A DNA stretch of 64,000 bases, from the NCBI GenBank assembly GCA_903889445.1, contig CAISXF010000079.1, positions 1 to 64,000 of the forward strand, read 5' to 3'. Under the pieces are notes generated by a model. That model had not been told where the DNA came from. It was given only the letters and a program-made list of their open reading frames with translations, and ran no database searches. Both the position numbers and the translations under genes were made by a program. The DNA is from an uncultured Pseudomonadota bacterium (GTDB lineage Bacteria; Pseudomonadota; Gammaproteobacteria; Methylococcales; Methylomonadaceae). Positions 2,971 through 14,523 of the stretch are shown here, piece after piece (the first letter of the stretch is position 1; the number at the start of each line of letters is the position of its first letter).

Positions 2971-4728
2971 TTACATCGCTTCAGGTGCGCTAATACCTAA
3001 CAACGTCAAGCCATTCACCAACACTTGCTGAATGGCAGCAATTAAATTCAAGCGTGCATTTCGCACCGTGTCGTTCTCGACTAAAAATTGATGCGCGTTG
3101 TAATAAGTATGAAAATCGGTCGCCAATTGACGCAAATAGTTAATGATTAAATGCGGTTCATATTGCGTCGCCGCGCGTTCAATGACTTCGGGATAACGCG
3201 CCAACGTCGTCAATAATGCGGTTTCGTGTTCGGCAGTCAATTCGGCTAAATTCGCCATTCCCAACGCCATATCTTGAGTGAAACCTTTCTCACCCAATTG
3301 ACGGAACACGCTGCAAACTCTGGCGTGCGCGTATTGAACGTAGAAAACAGGATTTTCGTTTGATTTGGATTTCGCGAGTTCTAAATCGAAATCCATGTGT
3401 TGTTCGGAACGGCGCATAACGTAGAAAAATCGTGCGGCATCTCTGCCCACTTCGTCGCGCAATTCTCGCAACGTCACGAATTCGCCAGAGCGCGTGGACA
3501 TGGACACTTTTTCTGTGCCGCGCCACAAATTCGCAAACTGAACCAATAAAACATTTAACTTCGTTTGGTCTGCGCCCAAAGCCGTCAACGCCGCTCGAAC
3601 TCGCGCAATATAACCGTGATGATCCGCGCCCCAAATGTCGATTAACACGTCAAAACCGCGTTCTAATTTGTTCCAATGATAGGCAATATCCGACGCAAAA
3701 TAAGTATATTGACCATTGTCACGAATCACCACGCGGTCTTTTTCGTCGCCCAATTCGCTCGATTTAAACCACGTCGCACCGTCTTTTTCGTACAAATAAT
3801 TATTCGATTTTAAAACCGCCAATGACTTTTCAATTGAACCGTCGTCCATCAACGAACGTTCTGAAAACCATTGATTATACGTCGTGCCAAATTCGGCTAA
3901 ATCGTCTTTGATGTCGCTTAAAATATCGTTCAAACCAGCGTCAAAAACCACACTATAACCGTCGCCCAATAATGCTTTTGCACGCAAAATAAGTGCGTCG
4001 ATATAATCATCTTTATCGCCGCCTTCGGGTTCGTCGAGCGGTAAATCAGCAAAAACGGTTGCCGTTGAATGTGAATAATTTTTGCCGTGAAATTCAACTA
4101 ATTTTTGAGCAATATCGCGCACATAGTCGCCCCGATAAGCGTTGCTCGGGAACGTAAATGTTTCGCCGCAGGCTTCTAAATAGCGCAACCAAACGCTGGT
4201 CGCTAAAATGTCCATTTGTCGTCCAGCATCGTTGACGTAGTATTCACGATGCACTTCAAAACCCGTCGCCGTTAATAAATTTCCCATCACCGAACCATAC
4301 GCCGCGCCGCGTCCGTGACCAACATGCAGCGGGCCAGTAGGATTGGCGGACACAAATTCAACTTGAACTTTTTTGCCCGCGCCGATTTGGCTTTTGCCGA
4401 AATTTTCGCCCGCTGTTTGAATATCGGCAATCACTTGATATTGCGCGTTGGAATTCATGAAAAAATTGATAAATCCTGCGCCCGCAATTTCCACTTTTAA
4501 AATCGCTTCGTTTATGGGTAATGCGGCAATAATTTGTTCCGCAAGTTGGCGCGGATTGGTTTTGGTTGGTTTTGCCAACATCAATGCGATATTCGTAGCA
4601 AAATCACCGTGCGCCGTGTCGCGGGTGCGTTCAATGTGAACCGTAGGATTTAAATCGACGGGTAAAATCTCTTGCGTTTTTAATGCCGCGACAGCTTGAG
4701 AAATAAGGGTTTCGAGTTGTTTTTTCAT
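2971..4728 (-). CDS. argS: Arginyl-tRNA synthetase
   Basis: A class I aminoacyl-tRNA synthetase of 585 residues that charges tRNA-Arg. An N-terminal additional domain comes first. The HIGH-type motif appears in [21 protein letters not shown], and the C-terminal anticodon-binding DALR domain ends in [12 protein letters not shown]. The KMSKS loop has the usual ArgS form [11 protein letters not shown], in which the family often lacks a canonical lysine pair. The length is typical. The SPOR gene follows directly. Confidence 0.97.
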
Positions 4729-4781
4729 GGTGTCACAAATAGTCTAAAAATTAGGGCGCATTATCCATTAAAGTGACTGAT

Positions 4782-5483
4782 TTATCCATTATCACGATTT
4801 AACCGTATTTGAGCGCGTTCGATTTCGGTTTGCGCGACTTTATCACGCAAATAAACGGGCTGTGCGAATTCCGCCGCCACGCCTAAACCGCGTTGAAAAC
4901 CGTAAACGCCCAATTCTGCAATCGTGCTGGATTGCGGCAAAACGTCGCTTTCAATTTGCGTGACGAAACCTTCTGTTTTCAACAATAACTCTTCTTTGTA
5001 AACGCGCCAACCTGAACCCATTCCCAGCGCGGATTGTGCTGGAAATTCAATTTGTTCAACGGGTAAAACCGCTTCTTTGCCGACTAATTCCATAAAACCG
5101 TCGGCGTTTCGTTGATAAACACCCCAAAAAATTTCGCCAATGCGTGCGTCGATAGCAACAAAAGCGCGTTCGGGTAATCGATTTTGCGCCAATGCGGCAA
5201 GCGTTGAAACGGGAACAACGGGCAAATCCGCGCCAAACGCCAAACCTTGAACTACGCCGGTTGCAATGCGTAAACCGGTGAATGAACCCGGACCGCAACC
5301 AAACGCCAGCGCGTCGAGTTGTGACAATTTTAATTCGGCTTCCGCGAGCAATGATTCAATCATTGGCAATAATAATTTCGTGTGCGCTTTGGGTGTGATT
5401 TCAAAACGTTGCCGAATTTCACCGTCGATAAATAGCGCGGCAGAGCAGGCTTCGGTGGAGGTGTCGAGTGCGAGTAATTTCAT
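4782..5483 (-). CDS. tsaB: tRNA threonylcarbamoyladenosine biosynthesis protein TsaB
   Basis: TsaB is the non-catalytic partner of TsaD in the bacterial t6A complex that modifies ANN-decoding tRNAs. The 233-residue length is standard. The ASKHA-fold start MKLLALDTSTEACSAAL and the GPGSFTGLRIA signature are intact. The neighbour tsaD is not in the window. Downstream of it, at 5541-5619, lies a stranded copy of another gene's 3' end. Confidence 0.95.
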   Translation of the reverse strand: MKLLALDTSTEACSAALFIDGEIRQRFEITPKAHTKLLLPMIESLLAEAELKLSQLDALAFGCGPGSFTGLRIATGVVQGLAFGADLPVVPVSTLAALAQNRLPERAFVAIDARIGEIFWGVYQRNADGFMELVGKEAVLPVEQIEFPAQSALGMGSGWRVYKEELLLKTEGFVTQIESDVLPQSSTIAELGVYGFQRGLGVAAEFAQPVYLRDKVAQTEIERAQIRLNRDNG

Positions 5484-5540
5484 AATTTTGCCTTCAGAGT
5501 GATGCGTGACGAAGGTTTAGTGTGGGTGTTTAAATTCTCG

Positions 5541-5619
5541 TTCATTTCCAAATACTCACAATGTTGGTGAAATCATCTGTCCATGCCGGCATATCGAAAT
5601 AAAGCGGTATTTTTTGCCA
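5541..5619 (-). repeat. 79-bp direct repeat, copy A: stranded 3' end of the MFS/spermidine-synthase-like gene
   Basis: The segment matches 9340-9418 with about nine mismatches in 79 bp by eye. Read on the minus strand it encodes WQKIPLYFDMPAWTDDFTN..IWK and a TGA stop. The intact gene at 9341-11602 ends the same way. Most differences are at third codon positions, so this copy diverged while it was still coding. It has no upstream gene body here and lies between tsaB and the VWA gene. Together with copy B it brackets the MoxR/VWA pair. Confidence 0.85.
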
Positions 5620-5639
5620 AAACAGGTTTGCGATAGTTT

Positions 5640-7280
5640 TCAAAGTACAACCACTTCGTCACTAAACTTGTCATCTATTCGTAAACCCGCACAAAGCACT
5701 GTGTAAATCGAACAATCTAACGCCGCTTTTCTGTTGTTTAGCGTTTCAACAAATTCCGTTGATAAACCACAATCGCCGTCTGAAATCATCAACACGTCCG
5801 CTTTTTGGTAGCTTTTTTGCACTTCGATGATTTCAAAAGCCCGTTTTAATGGGGTTTCAAAATCCGTCCCGCCACCGTAGCCCATTCGTAAAAATTGCAG
5901 TAAATCCGCCGCCGTCGCTTGATTGTGCATCGCAAATTCTTTCACTTGTCCCGAACTGCCAAACAACAAAACATACAACGCGCGTTTTTCTTTTTGCAAA
6001 ACCCCCGAAATTGCCAACAACAACGCTTTCGCTTTCAATAACGGTGCGCCTTCCATACTGCCCGACGTATCCAAACACGCCACAACCGCGCCCGTTCTTT
6101 TGTCGTGTGTTTCTTTTTCTTCGCGTTGCACAAATGTCGTGCCTTGCAATTCATACGTCAGCAGATTTTTTTCTAATAATCGTGCGTAAAACAGCATTTC
6201 CAGCGTTTCATCTTCTAAATTCAACAATTCGCTCGGCAACACGCGCATTAAATCATCGCTACGGTGTGTGCCATGCACTTCACTTTTGCTACGTTCTGGA
6301 ATGCGTTTTTGTTTTTTCTTTTCTTCCGAAATGTAATCACGCCCCATTTTTCGCACTAATTCTTTGATTCGTGCGTTGTCTTTGAGCGTATTCGCTAACG
6401 CCGCAAAATCTTCATTCAAATTTTTAAGTTGTGCGTAGGAAAAACCCGCGTCTGGGCATTGGGCGAGAAAGTGTTTTACTTCTTCATATTTCGTTGAAAT
6501 GTCAGTCAATGTTTGTCGAAAAACGGTCAATCGTTTGCGAACAGAATCGGGGATATTTTCATCTGAAATTTCCGTTTCGTATTCTTGCGTTGCCGCAAGT
6601 TCTTGGCGGATTTGTTCAATACTTTGCGAATTTAACGGCTGATTTTCAAAATAATCATTGATGGCTTGCCAATCAGGTTCGGGCGTTTCTTCCCGTTCAT
6701 TTTCGTTTTCCCAATCCCACAATCGCCATTTTGTAGCCCCCAATTTCTTACGCGCCGCACTTTTCAACGCGCCAATGGTCGGTTCCCATGTTCCATTTAT
6801 TTCAAACAAGCCGCTTAAAAATCCGCCTTGATAACCCGATTCAGCGTAATTCACGCATTTTTCAGAAAATTGATGGCAATTTTTTACCACCAATCCATAA
6901 AATGACCGTTCGCCTAAATGTCCAACTGCGCCAGCCGAAACCGTTTCATGTCCCACCGCGCCACGATTGTCAGAAGACACATAAATTTTGCGTCCCAATT
7001 TACTTTTTGACGTGAAATCGCGTGCGTCACTTTGTTGCACTTGGCTTTCTGCTAAACCTTCCACCACGATATTTGAAATTTTACCGTCGCCTGTGTAAAT
7101 GCCAGAATGCTCAACCAACACCCACAAATCACAATACAACACGCTTCCCGCAACAGGTGTCACTTTTTCTCGAAAATAATTGTCGATGAAATACTTCATT
7201 GGTTTCAAGCCAACATAAGCGGCTGAAAATAAACCGCTTCCAATTTTCGATGCGGCATTCGCTAAAAACGAAAACATCAC
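5640..7280 (-). CDS. LRAT-like domain fused to a ViaA-type VWA protein
   Basis: Residues 1 to about 150 resemble an LRAT/NlpC-P60 (papain-like) fold: a candidate catalytic His58 in VEHSGIY and Cys135 in VVKNCHQF, the circularly permuted order seen in LRAT-family acyltransferases and hydrolases. Residues 190-390 are charged and helical. Residues about 395-546 form a VWA domain with an intact MIDAS DTSGS (404-408) and a GGGTDF motif, closest in style to ViaA, the partner of RavA. It lies six bases after the MoxR-type ATPase gene on the same strand, as in other MoxR-VWA pairs. The natural reading is an ATPase that remodels or loads a VWA-linked enzyme. The catalytic role of the LRAT-like part is inferred from the His/Cys motifs only. 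No signal peptide is evident. Confidence 0.75.
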   Translation of the reverse strand: MMFSFLANAASKIGSGLFSAAYVGLKPMKYFIDNYFREKVTPVAGSVLYCDLWVLVEHSGIYTGDGKISNIVVEGLAESQVQQSDARDFTSKSKLGRKIYVSSDNRGAVGHETVSAGAVGHLGERSFYGLVVKNCHQFSEKCVNYAESGYQGGFLSGLFEINGTWEPTIGALKSAARKKLGATKWRLWDWENENEREETPEPDWQAINDYFENQPLNSQSIEQIRQELAATQEYETEISDENIPDSVRKRLTVFRQTLTDISTKYEEVKHFLAQCPDAGFSYAQLKNLNEDFAALANTLKDNARIKELVRKMGRDYISEEKKKQKRIPERSKSEVHGTHRSDDLMRVLPSELLNLEDETLEMLFYARLLEKNLLTYELQGTTFVQREEKETHDKRTGAVVACLDTSGSMEGAPLLKAKALLLAISGVLQKEKRALYVLLFGSSGQVKEFAMHNQATAADLLQFLRMGYGGGTDFETPLKRAFEIIEVQKSYQKADVLMISDGDCGLSTEFVETLNNRKAALDCSIYTVLCAGLRIDDKFSDEVVVL

Positions 7281-7286
7281 AACTCC

Positions 7287-9344
7287 TTACAACCAAACGT
7301 TATTGCGAATTTGTTGTAACAATAAATCTTCCATGCCTGTGTTGTTTTGTGTGGCGGGTTTTGATGTTGCGGTTGTTGATAAATTTCGTAATGCAGGACG
7401 ATTATTTGCATCGTCCCATTCCCAGATATTTTCAAAATCCCAACCCAAAGTCAGTTCATGATAACGTTGATTAAACATCGCGGCTGCCAACGTTTTGCCA
7501 TCTTTTCCAGCGGCATCATCACTGCCTTTGTACTGTGAATCAACTAGTAAAATAGTATCAATGGCAGCATTGTTTTTTAATGTGGGTTTTAATGTTTTGT
7601 GAGCAATACGAGAAAAATTTTTATCTCTAGTCGTGCTGAAGGCTCTCATGTTGGGGAATGTATCGCTCATTTTCACTGTAAGCACACCAACTGAACAATT
7701 TTGAATTGTGCTGTCGTTGCACATCCAAACAATCCCGCCAAAATTTGAACGTAGATGTTGTTGAATAATACCTGTTACAAAACAACGTTCCACACGGCTA
7801 TTTTTAGTCACCCTCTGTGCAATACATCCTAAAGAAGTCTCACCCAAAAGACTTACATTTATATCCACCGCGCAATCTACTATTTTGCAATCAATCGCAT
7901 TTCCTACTAAATTTGATTTAGCGTTGCATTCACTAATTTGGCAATTAGTAGCAGTATCTGATACCAAATTCTTATGTACTTCACATTGACTAATCTGACA
8001 ACCATGAGCATTAGTTACTAAACTAACATCAGATTGGCAATGTGTAATTTGGCTATCTTCTATGAACTTCGCTAAAACGCATTTTTCTAGTTTGAGATTA
8101 GAAAAGCTCGATTTTGATTGAACGTTAGAAAACACATAATTTTTTTTCAACAGGTTTTTAATCAAATGCCCATCACCATCATAATGCCCTTGAAAATCCA
8201 TCGGACTCCAATGCGTTAAACTGGCGCAATCAATATCAGCCGTTTGTTTAAAGTAATAACCTTTTGTGCCAATGTCGGGGCGGCTGATGTCCATAAAATC
8301 ATGTAACGATTGAATCAAAATCGGATCGTTTTCTGTGCCACTGCCTGAAAAACCTTTAATTTTTCCTTCGCTCTGATTCGGCACAGATTTTTTGATTTCT
8401 GATTCTTTTGTGATTTCTGCGTGCGTGGCGTTGAGAGGAACAGCGTAACTGTGTTTTTGTAACGTTTTGATGATAATGTCGCGGACTTTTTCGGCGTTAT
8501 CGTAATGATTCCACAAGCAATTCTTTAACAACATCACGTCGGATAAATCGACGGTTTGACGTTCATTCGTTGCCGCCGATACACGCAAAAGTTGAATGAT
8601 TTTTTTCAAACGACGGTCTGATAAATTTTCGCGGCGGTCTTCTTTGAAAGTGGTTTTATGTTGCGCCCAAATACTGCGAATCGCGTCAATAATTTCAGTT
8701 GGAAGGGTGACATTTTCAGCGGCTTGTTGAATGTGTGACAAATCAAGCTGGGTCAATTTTTGAAACGATGGCGCGGCGGTGTTTGCTTCAAAGAGTTTGT
8801 GTAAATTATCTTCGCGGACATAATCAACAAAACTCCGCACCAAAAAACGGTCGTACAAGGCGTTTAATTCTTCTTCGCCTGTGGGCAATTCATTTGACGC
8901 AGAAATCAACGACAACAACGGTACTTTTTGTGGCTCTGAACCGTTGTGAAAAACGCGCTCGTTTAAAATCGTGAGCAATGAATTGAGAATTGACGAACTG
9001 GCTTTGAAAATTTCATCTAAAAACGCGATTTGTACCGTTGGCAAATAACCCGCTGTGTTGCGTTTGAAACGGTCGGCTTTAAGTTCGGTAATCGACAACG
9101 GGCCAAAAATTTCTTCGGGCGTTGAAAATTTGGTCAACAGATATTCAAAATAACCTGCGTCCTGATGCGTTTCTAAAATATCCGCGACACGACGGGCAAT
9201 CATACTTTTGCCTGTTCCAGGTGGACCAATCAACACGAGATTTTCACCTGCTAACATTGTCAACAACGCGGTTTTGATGGCTTCTTCACGTTCAACTAAT
9301 CCGTGATTCATTTGAGTGAGTAATGTTTGAATCTTTTGTTTCAT
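7287..9344 (-). CDS. MoxR/RavA-type AAA+ ATPase fused to GLUG-like beta-helix repeats
   Basis: Residues about 1-300 are a MoxR-family AAA+ module: Walker A GPPGTGKS near 42-49, Walker B FLDEIF near 110, and the RavA-like segments FSTPEEIFGPLS and SASNELP. From about residue 332 the protein changes to GLUG-type repeats: GSGTENDPILI, YFKQTADIDC, FQGHYDGDGHLIKNL, then several short Cys/Ser turns, ending in LGWDFENIWEWD, the usual GLUG closing motif. Such repeats are normally found in secreted or surface beta-helix proteins. I start at ATG 9344 because it forms an ATGA overlap with the upstream gene's stop and has GGAA before it; an in-frame TTG lies at 9350. The start lies inside direct repeat copy B. 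Confidence 0.78.
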   Translation of the reverse strand: MKQKIQTLLTQMNHGLVEREEAIKTALLTMLAGENLVLIGPPGTGKSMIARRVADILETHQDAGYFEYLLTKFSTPEEIFGPLSITELKADRFKRNTAGYLPTVQIAFLDEIFKASSSILNSLLTILNERVFHNGSEPQKVPLLSLISASNELPTGEEELNALYDRFLVRSFVDYVREDNLHKLFEANTAAPSFQKLTQLDLSHIQQAAENVTLPTEIIDAIRSIWAQHKTTFKEDRRENLSDRRLKKIIQLLRVSAATNERQTVDLSDVMLLKNCLWNHYDNAEKVRDIIIKTLQKHSYAVPLNATHAEITKESEIKKSVPNQSEGKIKGFSGSGTENDPILIQSLHDFMDISRPDIGTKGYYFKQTADIDCASLTHWSPMDFQGHYDGDGHLIKNLLKKNYVFSNVQSKSSFSNLKLEKCVLAKFIEDSQITHCQSDVSLVTNAHGCQISQCEVHKNLVSDTATNCQISECNAKSNLVGNAIDCKIVDCAVDINVSLLGETSLGCIAQRVTKNSRVERCFVTGIIQQHLRSNFGGIVWMCNDSTIQNCSVGVLTVKMSDTFPNMRAFSTTRDKNFSRIAHKTLKPTLKNNAAIDTILLVDSQYKGSDDAAGKDGKTLAAAMFNQRYHELTLGWDFENIWEWDDANNRPALRNLSTTATSKPATQNNTGMEDLLLQQIRNNVWL

Positions 9345-9418
9345 TTCCAAATTCCTATAATGTTTGTGAAATCATCTGTCCACGCTGGCATATCAAAATA
9401 AAGCGGCATTTTTTGCCA
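9340..9418 (-). repeat. 79-bp direct repeat, copy B: functional 3' end of the MFS/spermidine-synthase-like gene
   Basis: This copy is the real C-terminus and stop codon of the gene at 9341-11602, and it also contains the ATG of the MoxR-type gene. It is about 89 percent identical (by eye) to 5541-5619. The two copies are in the same orientation and about 3.8 kb apart. Confidence 0.85.
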
Positions 9419-11602
9419 TGAACCGAGCTGGCTGGTTTGTAATGGTTTGAGCGTTTCGGGATTTTTTGCCAAAACGACCCAATCGGTGGCGACAATCAAA
9501 GGCGCGTCGGTTTGGGGTTTGAATTCGTTAATCAACGCGGCGAGGTGCATTTCTTCGGCGTGAATCGAAACCACTTTTTTCAACAACAAATGCCGATTCG
9601 TAATGTGAAACGCCAAAATGCCATTCGGTTTTAGCTTTTTGAAATAGAGTTCAATCGCTTCGCGCGTCAGCAAATGCGTTGGCACTGCGTCGGAACTAAA
9701 CGCATCCATCATCAATAAATCAAACGTGCCATCGGGTTTATTTTGAATGGACAAACGCGCGTCACCAATTTCTGAAACCGCATTCGGCGCACATTGGCTG
9801 AGATAAGAAAAATAGGCAGAATTTTTGGCAATGTCCACAACGAGCGGATCAATTTCGTAAAGCGTCCACGTTTGCGACGGTTTCGCGTAACACGCCAACG
9901 CGCCCGCACCCAAACCCACCACACCGATATTCCAGCTTTCATTTTGAGCATCGAACGTTTTAAATAATTGTCCCATCGGACTGGGGCGGCTGTAATACGT
10001 CAACGGTGTTTTGCTTTCGGTCGGAATTAAACGCTGTGCGCCGTGTTTGGTCGTACCGTGAAATAATTCGTGATACATTTCGGGCTGATTTTTTTCGTCG
10101 GTCAACAGACTTTCACGCACCGCCATCACGCCAAAAAAAGTGCGTTCTTGCATCAAGGTGTGACTTTCGGCGTGATGCAAACTCATCGCCGCAGAAATAA
10201 TCACGCCCATCAAGCCCGCATACGCTACGACGCGCTGACGTAAAAAATACACCGCAATCGTCAACACGCACAAACTAATCACCACGCCGTCGAAATAATC
10301 CGTTAAATTCGCCACGCTGAAATAAATCCCTGCGCCAATTATCAGCAATAAAAGCGGGTCAATCAGTTGCATTCCAATTTCTGGTAACGACAATTTTTTC
10401 AAACTCGGACGCAACAATAACGCCGCGATAATCATCAACGGATATTCATAAATGCCATTAAAAACAAATGGCGCGACGAACGTGTTAAACATTCCGCCGA
10501 GCATTCCCGCAAACGACATAATCAAATAATACGTTGTGAGGTGCGAACTGTGCGGACGTTGCGCGGCGAGTTCCCCGTGGCAAACCATAATCGCAAAGAA
10601 AAACGCTATAACGTGAAAAAACAAATACATCCAATACGGCAAATCAGCGGGATTGATAAACGCATACGCTACGAATGGAATTAAAAATACGGGCTGCAAT
10701 CGCACAAACCACGCATGACTTTTATCGTTCCAGCGCGAAAAGACAACGACGAATGAAAACAAATAAACCGTGAGCGGAATAATCCAAAGTAACGGCACGG
10801 ATGCAATATCGGTGCTGATAAAATTCGTCAAACCGAGCAATAAACTCGATGGCACAAAAGCCAATGCGCCCCAATAAAATTTGGTTTTCCACGAAAGCGG
10901 TGGCGCGTTTGACGCTGAAATTGTGACGTTTTCGTTTTCAATTGATTGATAATTTTTCCACAACGCAAACCCACACGCCGCAATTAACAAACACAATCCC
11001 ACATAACCCAACGTCCAATCCGATTGTTGCGCGTTCAAACCCCAATTCGGTTCAATCAAAAAAGGATAACTCAACAACGAAACCAAACTGCCCGTATTGC
11101 TGGCGGCGTAGAGAAAATATGGGTCGTGGCTGTCTTTATGTCCAACGTGTGCAAACCATTTTTGAATCAGTGGCGCGGTCGTCGAAAGCACGAAAAAGGG
11201 CAAACCAATTGCCAACGCCAAAGTTGAAAATAGCCAAAAAGTCGGATTGCTTTCTGTTGGCGGGATTAAATTTTCGGGCAAACCGACGGGCAACGCCAAA
11301 AAACTGAGTGAAATAACGGCGAGATGAACAATGATTTGATGGTTGGATTTTAAACGTGTGCCGAGCAAATGCGCGTACAAATAACCCAAAAACAACACGC
11401 TTTGATAAAACACCATGCAGCTATTCCACACCGCAGGCGTGCCGCCAAGTAACGGCAAAAGCAATTTTCCAAACAGCGGTTGCAACACAAACATCAATAA
11501 TGCACTGGAAAATAACGTGCTGGCGAATAAGGCAATTAGGAAGATGGAACGATTTTGAAATGTAGGCATGAGTGACAACGAAGGCAATTGTTTGAAAGAC
11601 AA
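9341..11602 (-). CDS. Membrane protein fused to a spermidine-synthase-like methyltransferase-fold domain
   Basis: A 753-residue fusion. The first roughly 480 residues contain many hydrophobic helices of the MFS-like type (for example ALFASTLFSSALLMFVLQPLF, with later helices in PFFVLSTTAPLIQ and VIAFFFAIMVCHGELA). The C-terminal 230 residues are a Rossmann domain of the spermidine/spermine synthase family (VVGLGAGALACYA, LYEIDPLVVDIA, DAFSSDAVPTHLL). These 'fused MFS/spermidine synthase' proteins are widespread and have no settled substrate. The start could be slightly downstream of the first Met. Its 3' end is duplicated at 5541-5619. Confidence 0.85.
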   Translation of the reverse strand: MSFKQLPSLSLMPTFQNRSIFLIALFASTLFSSALLMFVLQPLFGKLLLPLLGGTPAVWNSCMVFYQSVLFLGYLYAHLLGTRLKSNHQIIVHLAVISLSFLALPVGLPENLIPPTESNPTFWLFSTLALAIGLPFFVLSTTAPLIQKWFAHVGHKDSHDPYFLYAASNTGSLVSLLSYPFLIEPNWGLNAQQSDWTLGYVGLCLLIAACGFALWKNYQSIENENVTISASNAPPLSWKTKFYWGALAFVPSSLLLGLTNFISTDIASVPLLWIIPLTVYLFSFVVVFSRWNDKSHAWFVRLQPVFLIPFVAYAFINPADLPYWMYLFFHVIAFFFAIMVCHGELAAQRPHSSHLTTYYLIMSFAGMLGGMFNTFVAPFVFNGIYEYPLMIIAALLLRPSLKKLSLPEIGMQLIDPLLLLIIGAGIYFSVANLTDYFDGVVISLCVLTIAVYFLRQRVVAYAGLMGVIISAAMSLHHAESHTLMQERTFFGVMAVRESLLTDEKNQPEMYHELFHGTTKHGAQRLIPTESKTPLTYYSRPSPMGQLFKTFDAQNESWNIGVVGLGAGALACYAKPSQTWTLYEIDPLVVDIAKNSAYFSYLSQCAPNAVSEIGDARLSIQNKPDGTFDLLMMDAFSSDAVPTHLLTREAIELYFKKLKPNGILAFHITNRHLLLKKVVSIHAEEMHLAALINEFKPQTDAPLIVATDWVVLAKNPETLKPLQTSQLGSWQKMPLYFDMPAWTDDFTNIIGIWK

Positions 11603-11604
11603 TT

Positions 11605-11787
11605 GGTATTTCCCACCTGCGCCGTTGCGTCCTTTCGTCCATGAACCGGAAGGTTCAAGTGGGAACGCTATTGGTTAATCGGGCTGCTTACACGGAGTAA
11701 GTATGCACGCCATAATCAGGATGCGCCCCCGAGGGTAATATAGGTTCAGGAAAACCCAGAACACTGTCAAACGCCGCAGGAAATACC
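11605..11787 (-). ncRNA. ssrS: 6S RNA
   Basis: This 183-nt segment lies directly downstream of zapA on the same strand, the classic position of 6S RNA in gammaproteobacteria. Its ends pair: 5' GGTATTTCC with 3' GGGAAATACC. The 3' half contains the ACTTGAACC...GGTTCA hairpin and a GCAACGGCGCAGG stretch resembling the E. coli 3' arm. The length matches the E. coli RNA (about 184 nt). 6S RNA mimics an open promoter and binds sigma70 RNA polymerase. Ends are assigned from the closing stem. Confidence 0.85.
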
Positions 11788-11805
11788 GGCATAGTTTAAT
11801 CGGCT

Positions 11806-12108
11806 TTAATCATTTTCTAAAACATTTTCTATTTTGTGACGCATATTTGATAAACATTCGTTGAGGTTTTGGTTGAGTCTCAAATTATCTTCTTTCAACA
11901 ATTGCAGTTCATGCGCGATATTTAATGCGACCATGACTGCAATTCGATCGTCGCCGTTAATTTTGCCCGCGTTGCGAATTTTTCGCATTTTTTCGTCTAA
12001 TTGTTTGGCGGATTCCAACAGTGATTCTTGTTCGTCAAAATCACAGGCGATTTTGTATTCTTTACCTAAAATAGTCAGCGAGATTGCCGACGGTTGTTTA
12101 TTATTCAT
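11806..12108 (-). CDS. zapA: Cell division protein ZapA
   Basis: A 100-residue FtsZ-ring-associated protein. The N-terminal globular part has the typical SLTILGKEYKIACDFDEQESLLESAKQLDEKM, split here as SLTILGKEYKIAC and ESLLESAKQLDEKM, followed by the motif DRIAVMVALNIAHELQLLK and a C-terminal coiled coil. It overlaps the upstream ZapB-like gene by four bases, and 6S RNA follows it. ZapA crosslinks FtsZ filaments at midcell. Confidence 0.95.
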   Translation of the reverse strand: MNNKQPSAISLTILGKEYKIACDFDEQESLLESAKQLDEKMRKIRNAGKINGDDRIAVMVALNIAHELQLLKEDNLRLNQNLNECLSNMRHKIENVLEND

Positions 12109-12332
12109 GTATTTTGCTCCATAGCTTTGAGACGACTAATCATTGCTTCGACTTGTGTGCGGGCGAGGGTGGTTTTTTCCAATAATTTCGCTTTTTCACG
12201 CACTAAAGCATCTTGTTTGATTTTCAAGGAAGTATTTTCGACTTTAGTGTGATGGTATTGTTCAATCAGCTTGTCGAGTTTGTCGTCAAAGAATTTTAAT
12301 TCTTCAGCTGGGTAGGATATATTTGGTTTCAT
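12105..12332 (-). CDS. ZapB-like small coiled-coil protein (TIGR02449-type)
   Basis: About 75 residues, almost entirely alpha-helical coiled coil with heptads of Leu and charged residues (LDKLIEQYHHTKVENTSLK, then AKLLEKTTLARTQVEAMISRLK). Small proteins of this kind lie directly upstream of zapA in many gammaproteobacteria, and the four-base overlap supports translational coupling. I prefer ATG 12332; an in-frame TTG at 12347 would add five residues. Function in division is inferred from context. Confidence 0.75.
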   Translation of the reverse strand: MKPNISYPAEELKFFDDKLDKLIEQYHHTKVENTSLKIKQDALVREKAKLLEKTTLARTQVEAMISRLKAMEQNT

Positions 12333-12479
12333 AGCATCAAAGTTCAAGAGTAATTAAAAAATAGGTCATCCACGTTTGAAACACGAAAAACCGCACAGAA
12401 ATGGTCATTAAGTCAATGAACAATGGTAGCATAACGTCTTATTTTAGTTTAGTAGAACCAACATTTTGTAGGGATATTT

Positions 12480-12989
12480 ATGAGTTACATGGCAATTGAT
12501 ACCATTTTAGGACAATATGACGCAGAATTATCTGCGGCGGAAGCGCATGGCATGGCGAGTGGCTTGCTTGCAGTGAATGTAAATTTTAGCGGCGAACAAT
12601 GGTTGACCGAATTATTACGGCACACCGCGCCATTAACTACTGAAACGCGCGTGGATTTAATGGGTTTATTTGATGACACGCAAGACGTGTTATTGCATGA
12701 CGAATTTGAATTTGAATTATTGTTGCCCGATGAAGATGACGCAACCTTAATCGAGCGCGTTGAAGCGTTAAGTCAGTGGTGCAAAGGCTTTTTATTCGGC
12801 GTAGGTTTTGCCAATACCGCGCCACAATTTTCACCGCAAGCGCAGGAAATTATCAAAGATATTGCCGAAATGACCAAATTAGACACGGCTATCGAATTGG
12901 AAGACGAAGAAGCTGAAAATGATTTTATGGAATTAACCGAGTATTTACGCGCGGGCGTGTTGGCGTTGCGGGATGAGTTTACTAAATAA
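12480..12989 (+). CDS. ygfB: UPF0149 family protein YgfB
   Basis: The 169-residue protein has the family pattern: ELSAAEAHGMASGLLAV near the N-terminus, CKGFLFGVGF in the middle and an acidic C-terminal helix region (ELEDEEAENDFMELTEYLRAGVLAL). Its start is divergent from the zapA group. ygfB normally heads the ygfB-pepP-ubiH operon. Here a DNA methyltransferase gene separates it from pepP. The molecular role is poorly defined; in pseudomonads a YgfB homologue affects antibiotic resistance regulation. Confidence 0.93.
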   Translation: MSYMAIDTILGQYDAELSAAEAHGMASGLLAVNVNFSGEQWLTELLRHTAPLTTETRVDLMGLFDDTQDVLLHDEFEFELLLPDEDDATLIERVEALSQWCKGFLFGVGFANTAPQFSPQAQEIIKDIAEMTKLDTAIELEDEEAENDFMELTEYLRAGVLALRDEFTK

Positions 12990-13005
12990 TGAAACAAGGT
13001 TTATC

Positions 13006-14523
13006 GTGAAAAACAAAATTTATTACGGCGACAACCTAGACGTTCTGCGCCGCTACATCAAAGATGAAACGGTCGATTTGTGTTACATCGACCCGCCGTT
13101 TAATTCCAAACGCAATTACAACCAAATTTACAACAACATCGGCAAAGAAGATGCCGCGCAATCGCAAGCGTTCACCGACACCTGGACATGGGACGACAAC
13201 GCCAATCAAGGGCTGGCTGAAATCAAAACCAATTACAACGGCGTTTTCACCGAGCAAAGCATCGATTTAATTTGCGGTTTAGAAAAGGTGTTGAAAAAAG
13301 GCGCGTTATTCGCGTATTTGGTGAGCATGACGTTACGGATTGCAGAAATTCACCGCGTGTTAAAACCCACCGGCAGTTTTTATTTTCATTGCGACCCAAC
13401 CGCCAGCCATTATTTGAAATTGGTTTTAGATGCTATTTTTTGTACGACGGGCGGGGATTTCTTGAATGAAATTGTTTGGTGTTACAACGTTGGTGGCAAA
13501 GGTAGTAAGCATTGGGCGAGAAAGCATGATGTCATTTTTTTCTATAGCAAATCACACAATTATTATTTTGACGGTAAATCTGTAGGAATAGCACGAGATA
13601 CGGGAACGAAAAGTTTTGGCGGCAAAATGGGGGTTGATGAAGACGGTAGACGATACCAAGACAAATTAGTGAAAAAAACAAATAAATACTATCGCTATTA
13701 TGTAGATGAACCAAAAATACCAGAAGATTGGTGGGTTGATATTAACTCAATACAATCAGGCTCAAAAGAACGTTTAGGTTATCCAACTCAAAAACCCGAA
13801 GCCCTTTTAGAGCGCATTATTAAAGCGAGTTCAAACAAAGATGGCATTATTTTAGATGCGTATTGCGGTTGCGGCACGACGGTTGCCGTGGCGCAAAAGT
13901 TGAATCGTCAATGGATTGGCATCGACATAACTTATCAAAGTATTTCGTTGATTTTGAAACGCCTCGAAGAACAAAGCAAAGATGCGTTAGACAATGTTGA
14001 AATTAGCGGCGTGCCAAAAGATTTTGAAAGCGCGGTAGCATTGGCGAATAAATCGGATGATAAAACGCGCAAAGAGTTTGAGAAATGGATGGTGTTACGG
14101 TATTCGGATAATCAAGCCATTATTAACGAAAAGAAAGGCGGCGACGGGGGCGTTGATGGCGTGGCGTATATTCCCGACCATATTGTTGGAAAGGTCATTG
14201 AATTTAAAAAAGTGATTTTCAGTGTGAAATCGAACGCAAAATTAACGCCGGCGGTTACTCGTGAATTATTCGGCGCGGTTGAACGTGAAAACGCCGCGAT
14301 TGGGATTTTATTAACGCTGTATCCAATGCCGAATTTAGTTAAAGACAGCAAACAATACGGGCTTTATCACAACGAATATGTCAGAGGTGGCAAAGATTAT
14401 CCAAAAATTCAGGTGATTTGCGTGGATGATATTTTGAATGGCGCGATTATGGACTTTCCTATTCCGGCTGAAGTGGTAAAAAAAGCCACACAGAAAGCGA
14501 CTGAACAGAAAGAGTTGTTTTAA
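13006..14523 (+). CDS. Site-specific DNA methyltransferase with an Mrr-like C-terminal domain
   Basis: An amino-methyltransferase of the beta order: catalytic motif IV DPPF at residues 29-32 precedes the SAM-binding motif DAYCGCGTT near residue 284. Between them is the target-recognition region. From about residue 345 the protein continues into a restriction-endonuclease-like (Mrr/PD-(D/E)xK) segment: GGDGGVDGVAYI, then VIFSVKSNAKL. The expected acidic or Gln residue before xK reads Ser, so nuclease activity is doubtful. GTG 13006 is preferred because AAGG lies six bases upstream and the family begins KNKIYYGDNL; ATG 12973 would overlap ygfB by 17 bases. It interrupts the usual ygfB-pepP neighbourhood and no separate endonuclease gene is adjacent. 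Probably an acquired modification or single-protein restriction-modification gene. Confidence 0.85.
   Translation: MKNKIYYGDNLDVLRRYIKDETVDLCYIDPPFNSKRNYNQIYNNIGKEDAAQSQAFTDTWTWDDNANQGLAEIKTNYNGVFTEQSIDLICGLEKVLKKGALFAYLVSMTLRIAEIHRVLKPTGSFYFHCDPTASHYLKLVLDAIFCTTGGDFLNEIVWCYNVGGKGSKHWARKHDVIFFYSKSHNYYFDGKSVGIARDTGTKSFGGKMGVDEDGRRYQDKLVKKTNKYYRYYVDEPKIPEDWWVDINSIQSGSKERLGYPTQKPEALLERIIKASSNKDGIILDAYCGCGTTVAVAQKLNRQWIGIDITYQSISLILKRLEEQSKDALDNVEISGVPKDFESAVALANKSDDKTRKEFEKWMVLRYSDNQAIINEKKGGDGGVDGVAYIPDHIVGKVIEFKKVIFSVKSNAKLTPAVTRELFGAVERENAAIGILLTLYPMPNLVKDSKQYGLYHNEYVRGGKDYPKIQVICVDDILNGAIMDFPIPAEVVKKATQKATEQKELF

Follow-up and report, generated by a model that had tools for sequence, protein, structure and literature searches.

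We identified, behind the 3' end of a spermidine-synthase-like (SpeE-like) gene, a two-gene insertion that ends on its far side in a second, stranded copy of the same gene end. The gene lies in the 64,000-nucleotide stretch analyzed here (the window: positions 1 to 64,000 of contig CAISXF010000079.1, assembly GCA_903889445.1, from an uncultured bacterium of the Methylomonadaceae). On balance, and with reserve, we favor the view that, in a genus of lake methane-oxidizing bacteria, this gene end is an insertion hot spot for defence-like modules, with homologous recombination anchoring the incoming DNA in the SpeE-like gene and an illegitimate joint closing the event in the resident gene end. A repeat search over positions 4000-13000 returned a direct repeat of 79 nt and 89% identity (5541-5619 and 9340-9418), by far the longest direct repeat in that interval, and a query with 5400-5760 against the entire genome of the window retrieved the 9340-9418 copy (E = 8.9e-23). 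The latter (copy B) comprises the final 25 codons and the stop of the MFS/spermidine-synthase-like gene (9341-11602, minus strand), as supported by the sequence, the repeat and the alignment of relatives. Copy A (5541-5619, minus strand), assigned from the repeat search and the relatives, has no gene attached and lies 3.8 kb downstream of the gene end. The earlier note had likewise described a gene end occurring twice, once functional and once stranded. Homology between the two copies may extend beyond 5619, to about 5640, and in one relative (G009) it clearly runs past the 79-nt limit. The host open reading frame (ORF) is present in all 18 genomes of the genus, and its protein matched the Pfam Spermine_synth model only below that model's cut-off (E 0.016). 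Between the repeat copies stand two genes only, both on the host gene's strand: a MoxR-type AAA+ ATPase, whose start overlaps the SpeE-like stop as ATGA, and a VWA-domain protein.

The comparison with relatives rests on 18 draft genomes, mostly metagenome-assembled, in which many contigs stop near the site (genomes are denoted G, with G000 the window's own, contigs C and loci L). A search with the gene-end motif recovered at least one end in each of the 18 and extra ends in G000, G002, G004, G007, G009, G010, G014 and G015; the named contigs carrying the motif came from freshwater Methylococcales assemblies. The site was empty in five genomes (G003, G006, G012, G013 and G016), where the SpeE-like gene and an SBP_bac_5 lipoprotein gene overlap at stop and start, and in the other 13 something else stood directly behind the stop. 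These empty sites, together with the second gene end on the far side of the insert, bear out the insertion behind the gene that had been proposed from the sequence of the window. Between the SpeE-like gene and the lipoprotein gene, G008 carries PD-(D/E)XK and Rpn-type nuclease genes and G010 the MoxR-VWA module plus a C5 methylase. In G001 two contigs each gave a methylase reading, one following SpeE and the other preceding the lipoprotein gene; most of the remaining genomes have the lipoprotein gene on a separate contig. Further cargo directly behind the SpeE stop included a PemK-type toxin-antitoxin pair, PDDEXK_4 and PDDEXK_2 nucleases, a helix-turn-helix gene and unknown ORFs.

The six genomes with the VWA gene all keep the order SpeE, MoxR, VWA, with SpeE-MoxR and MoxR-VWA on two contigs in G007. 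The SpeE side is constant among them, except that some carry a small cysteine-rich ORF and an Rpn gene, whole or as a remnant, and the far side of the module is different in each. A second SpeE end follows VWA in five of the six, and the succession of SpeE, module and stranded end was also read on single contigs in G010 and G014. Shorter stranded SpeE ends were found in three further genomes, and the Rpn genes of G002 and G015 terminate within a SpeE end. All stranded ends finish at the stop codon, with lengths of about 79-100, 37, 26 and 33-40 nt; their 5' limits lie anywhere between about 26 and about 100 nt upstream of the stop and leave no constant core. A short SpeE end also occurs far from SpeE in G004 (C103:6146-6172, L154), between ABC-transporter-like and pseudouridine-synthase-like genes. 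The tested insert ORFs of the window and its relatives included no recombinase other than an Rpn-type nuclease that Pfam terms a transposase, in line with the earlier remark that no integrase is present, and a search for Ku was negative in all 18 genomes.

The differences between proximal and stranded copies provide information about their history. Per 78 coding bases, the two copies differ at nine in the window's genome, five in G007, three in G014 and two each in G009 and G010. The statement that the differences are mostly synonymous is weak for the window's pair alone, in which four of the nine are synonymous and five nonsynonymous, yet it does hold genus-wide: over eight proximal/stranded comparisons, three of them with the short copies of G002 and G015, synonymous codons made up 17 of the 23 that differed. 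About 19% would be expected from random change (P 2e-8) and about 32% if one copy were conserved and the other drifted freely (P 5e-5), the latter figure being our own estimate with equal rates on both branches. Leaving out one or three synonymous codons gave P = 1e-4 or 6e-4, and all of these P values are optimistic, with related pairs treated as independent. This excess of synonymous codon differences indicates that the copies diverged mainly as coding sequence, as had been supposed for the window's pair.

Stranded copies resemble the functional end of their own genome (2 of 120 permutations were equally good). Four of the five nonsynonymous changes between copies A and B cluster within two neighboring codons, where copy B reads ATAGGA and the relatives GTGAGC or GTGAGT. 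These four changes are unique to the functional end of this genome and yield an AGGA upstream of the MoxR ATG; they might represent a ribosome-binding site gained after MoxR came to overlap the stop. The earlier note had expected copy A, as the resident end, to match empty-site genomes better, and plain counts place A nearer than B to four of the five such genomes. The choice of resident copy flips, however, with the four clustered changes in copy B.

Signs of homologous exchange were sought within the SpeE-like gene itself, using third-position identity at codons that encode the same residue. It averaged 0.69 (pepP, 15 pairs), 0.64 (UPF0149, 28 pairs) and 0.69 (zapA, 36 pairs), and over the successive fifths of SpeE 0.71, 0.66, 0.75, 0.79 and 0.81 (36 pairs from nine genomes). 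Identity rose along SpeE towards the 3' end in 33 of the 36 pairs, in some from 0.58 to 0.91. The lipoprotein gene was flat, rising in 15 of its 28 pairs. Hardly any rise was seen when one partner was a basal genome, G012 or G016 (the thirds of G000-G012 are 0.53, 0.51 and 0.58), and the high values of SpeE unite genomes that stand far apart by tsaB and by the lipoprotein gene; both observations speak against plain constraint as the cause.

These findings can be accommodated by a sequence of events in which incoming DNA, made up of a SpeE end and a module, would recombine homologously with the resident SpeE gene, and illegitimate recombination would join the opposite end of the incoming DNA inside the resident gene end. 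The gene would keep a complete 3' end, and the last bases of the resident copy would be stranded before the old downstream neighbor. The second gene-end copy on the far side points to a recombination led by the gene itself, with no dedicated enzyme. Because the homologous side is constant and the far side variable, the stranded ends differ in length, divergence is of the coding type, the tested inserts have no recombinase and the genomes no Ku, the mechanism of best fit is homology-facilitated illegitimate recombination. Homologous recombination had been offered in the earlier note only as an alternative, and it is the one that the codon differences and the synonymous gradient in SpeE fit best. 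Once in place, a module could later be exchanged by ordinary homologous recombination, with RecA alone and the stranded end as the second arm; such exchange would account for stranded ends being like the gene end of the same genome and for an integrase being dispensable. We rejected capture of the DNA by non-homologous end joining, as no Ku was found in the 18 genomes.

Several observations, besides the optimistic P values, weigh against this scenario. The gene for tsaB, chosen as a control for the gradient, also rises (33 of 36 pairs), so that the gradient in SpeE is no proof of exchange. When the ATAGGA codons are masked, copy B becomes the nearer one in all five empty-site genomes. G004 has the module with no stranded end behind it, and the copy pairs of G007 and G009 are split over contigs, those of G009 being no simple continuation of each other. 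On overall similarity we rejected a co-transfer of SpeE and module: the 10 module-sharing pairs show no greater SpeE similarity than the remaining 95.

Gene-end copies were also present at other loci, where the names of the genes, Rpn and PIN excepted, were assigned by eye. In G010 (C18; L352 10176-11177) a toxin-antitoxin-like pair stands behind trpS, then comes the trpS end again as a 47-nt copy of 98% identity, and the stretch after this distal copy begins like the stretch behind trpS in G000. The end of a methylase-like gene, about 92 nt, occurs three times (once as 33 nt) in G014 (C8; L307 1201-3123), surrounding PIN and other toxin-antitoxin-like genes, one PIN ORF taking its last codons from the gene end. 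Similarly, the last codons of an Rpn ORF in G008 (C33; L268 4735-5687) are a copy of the neighboring pntB-like gene end (52 nt, 92%), and a kinase-like gene end lies behind Rpn in G003. Flanking direct repeats were found at 11 of 32 Rpn loci as against 3 of 200 random places (Fisher 1.7e-8). Three further Rpn loci with short flanks were left out of this count, and no fewer than two of the 11 owe their repeat to ends common to Rpn genes or to Rpn-like ends. Some of the flanking repeats are hairpins or intergenic stretches and not gene ends. PIN loci had them as well (5 of 16 versus the same 3 of 200; Fisher 6e-5), and on this ground we rejected Rpn-driven insertion as a general cause. In a narrower search, Rpn genes with flanking repeats numbered 2 of 24 in other genera versus 4 of 17 in the genus (Fisher P 0.21), and a genus-specific effect is not established. 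The PIN count and the narrower search used only loci with full 1.5 kb flanks (16 of 30 PIN, 24 of 28 Rpn from other genera, and 17 of 24 strong plus 3 of 6 weak Rpn from the genus). A genome-scale excess of gene-end repeats was not clear either: we counted 2 per 400 kb in G010, 0 per 200 kb in G025 and 3 per 200 kb in G027, a genome full of dispersed repeats.

The main rival to gene-led recombination is a target-site duplication, in which a cut-and-fill event, perhaps promoted by an Rpn-type PD-(D/E)XK nuclease, duplicates 25-100 bp so that both copies derive from the resident gene; events at gene ends would survive since the gene stays intact. Such an origin agrees with the few within-genome differences in G009, G010 and G014, with the 98% identity of the 47-nt trpS copy in G010, with the direct repeats at Rpn loci (11/32 versus 3/200) and with the role in RecA-independent recombination described for Rpn proteins (PMC5350276). 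An Rpn gene or remnant also sits beside SpeE in G002, G004, G008, G015, G009, G010, G014 and G007, the remnants being recognized by eye. Yet duplication of one resident sequence sits poorly with the excess of synonymous differences between the copies, PIN genes are repeat-flanked too (5/16), and the window's genome has no Rpn gene at the site. We therefore regard target-site duplication as rather unlikely, if still the strongest competitor.

Less probable again is a classical integrative element that used an attachment site in the gene's 3' end and has since lost its integrase. Integrative elements with such sites leave a restored gene end on one side and a stranded one on the other, which is the arrangement found here; unlike them, however, the SpeE-like site has no integrase among the tested insert ORFs and no constant core, the 5' limits of the stranded ends being variable. 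Furthermore, the core pattern of the gene end had no exact match in 2.9 million viral contigs, and MoxR-VWA pairs elsewhere in the family were seen without an adjoining SpeE end. If a tandem duplication had decayed, whether of the gene alone or together with the module, the second copy would be reduced to its 3' end; such a history could draw on the tandem order of the gene ends and on the tandem Rpn genes with shared ends at L269. We think it improbable, and slightly more so than a lost integrase: no relative has a full second paralogue at the place of copy A, or any longer SpeE copy behind the module, and the same arrangement surrounds several unrelated inserts. Least credible of all, in our view, is an assembly fault or a mixture of strains in the metagenome bin. 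The bin has 121 contigs, two tsaB versions (C79 and C6) and a contig with overlapping ends that holds the old SpeE neighbor (C107), all of which could raise such a suspicion, but the single contigs of G010 and G014 carry the same order of SpeE, module and stranded end, and only the join to tsaB is unique to the bin.

The module itself combines a conserved ATPase with a highly variable domain. The MoxR protein (7287-9344, minus strand, with its ATG at 9344) matched Pfam bpMoxR (7e-61), AAA_5 and AAA_lid_8, and the protein encoded behind it (5640-7280, minus strand; 6 of 18 genomes) matched VWA_2 (8e-9). Among six relatives, and with insertions and deletions present, alignment columns 390-660 of MoxR have a mean identity of 23-69%, compared with mostly 80-100% in the ATPase part. 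The hypervariable part, residues about 396-575 (7620-8159, minus strand), was delimited by alignment identity and by the nonsynonymous divergence (dN), which is 0.24-0.64 there as against 0.007-0.09 in the ATPase part; it is flanked by a conserved linker and a conserved C-terminus. Synonymous divergence (dS) in the same residues is 0.5-1.8 or saturated, and dN/dS is 0.25-0.45 where computable. Positive selection on the domain is not supported by these values. Because both dN and dS are raised, the variability suggests a swapping of diverged domain alleles and not point-wise selection. With its nearly invariant ATPase and hypervariable domain, MoxR may be, as a guess, a candidate sensor of a conflict system. 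No Pfam model matched the variable part in the Pfam scan, and an AlphaFold model of MoxR gave no usable fold (mean pLDDT, the predicted local distance difference test score, of 36). Judged by eye, its repeats may be of a beta-helix or GLUG type; a literature search pairing MoxR with GLUG found none.

The distribution of the pair outside the site was also informative. A VWA match was present in 20 of 201 family genomes; outside the genus the close matches were those of G108 and G125 and, in part, that of G111. The first two of these genomes have the MoxR-VWA pair in a different setting, where neither a SpeE gene nor a SpeE end was seen next to it, so the second gene end is no fixed part of the pair. 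Searches of mobile DNA returned 62 plasmid records for VWA, all below 60% identity and none spanning 80% of the protein, and 20 phage records for MoxR, all below 60%, those shown matching the AAA part only.

The far flank of copy A has a separate history. The adjoining gene, tsaB (4782-5483, minus strand; Pfam TsaD 2.5e-27), has other neighbors in relatives, and the short stretch before it (5484-5533, minus strand) matches, in a sequence search, the end of the gene that precedes tsaB on contig C6 of the same bin and in G010. The earlier note had expected tsaB directly beside the SpeE-like gene in a genome with an empty site. This proved wrong: the neighbor there is the lipoprotein gene, and tsaB precedes argS in four relatives (G003, G004, G005 and G008; gene names by eye), with varied genes upstream. 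None of the relatives with an available SpeE flank has tsaB beside SpeE, several of these contigs stopping soon after SpeE. A second, partial tsaB (L034 5634-6128, on C6) covers residues 1-167 only and sits behind the same gene that precedes tsaB in G010. Contig C107 (L138, 10,717 bases), whose ends overlap, contains an NgoPII-type restriction-modification pair and type III restriction-like genes. It also holds the former SpeE neighbors, the C5 methylase and the SBP lipoprotein, the lipoprotein gene being split over its ends. The overlap of the two ends suggests that C107 is a circular assembly path. Since the neighbors of tsaB differ elsewhere and the old neighbors of SpeE are on C107, copy A and tsaB were brought together by a secondary rearrangement or, with lower probability, by a fault of assembly. 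A second insertion lies in the window 3.4 kb from the first, at another stop/start overlap: a methyltransferase-like gene (12973-14523), 33% identical to an N6_N4_Mtase ORF of L017, separates UPF0149 and pepP, which overlap in relatives, and the 10-bp repeat AATGAAACAA (the start of pepP) is found at both of its ends.

Homology-facilitated illegitimate recombination has been proposed for the displacement arrays of Vibrio type VI secretion clusters (PMC5361080), which share with the SpeE-like site a homology anchor on one side, an illegitimate joint on the other, displaced resident pieces downstream and serial events that build arrays. The SpeE-like site differs from the Vibrio arrays in that no more than the final 25-100 bases are left behind, that they come from an unrelated core gene which itself remains unbroken, and that the cargo does not act as an effector of that gene. 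Small variable segments in the genomes of bacterial species, a fraction of them flanked by direct repeats, have also been attributed to illegitimate recombination (PMC2884548). Our inserts resemble these in size, variability and, in some cases, flanking repeats, although the repeats described there are mostly below 30 bp, whereas those reported here are host gene 3' ends of up to about 100 nt with coding-type divergence. An Rpn insertion between panC and panD in Enterobacteriaceae (PMC5350276) likewise involves accessory genes introduced repeatedly and independently at one intergenic place; the cargo at the SpeE-like gene is mixed, and the section on the panC-panD case describes no gene-end duplication. 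A class of predicted conflict systems is built around a core of MoxR and vWA proteins, its other components varying strongly between close relatives (PMC7159879), and diversity-generating retroelements have been reported at some MoxR-vWA loci (PMC10907252). The pair of bpMoxR and VWA_2 proteins and its strong variability between close relatives fit this description, yet, unlike in the ternary systems, the variability resides in a domain within the MoxR protein. Pfam domains of a third component (VMAP, inactive STAND, FtsH or beta-propeller) were absent from the two-gene insert, the rest of the genome not having been searched for one.

A wider and more speculative proposal, to which we give little credence for now, is that copies of host-gene 3' ends act as portable homology arms by which MoxR-VWA, Rpn, toxin-antitoxin and restriction-modification modules might, in this genus, be gained, lost and stacked behind SpeE-like, trpS, methylase and pntB-like genes. 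The resulting arrays, interspersed with gene-end copies, would form an integrase-free counterpart of the integron, with some cargo genes borrowing their last codons from the host gene. The narrower finding at the SpeE-like gene shows how a core gene can come to have accessory and probably defensive modules stacked after it with no visible integrase and with the gene left unbroken. The stranded gene end is a readable footprint of such insertions. If stranded ends do serve as homology arms, naturally exchanging populations could pass these modules among themselves with RecA alone.

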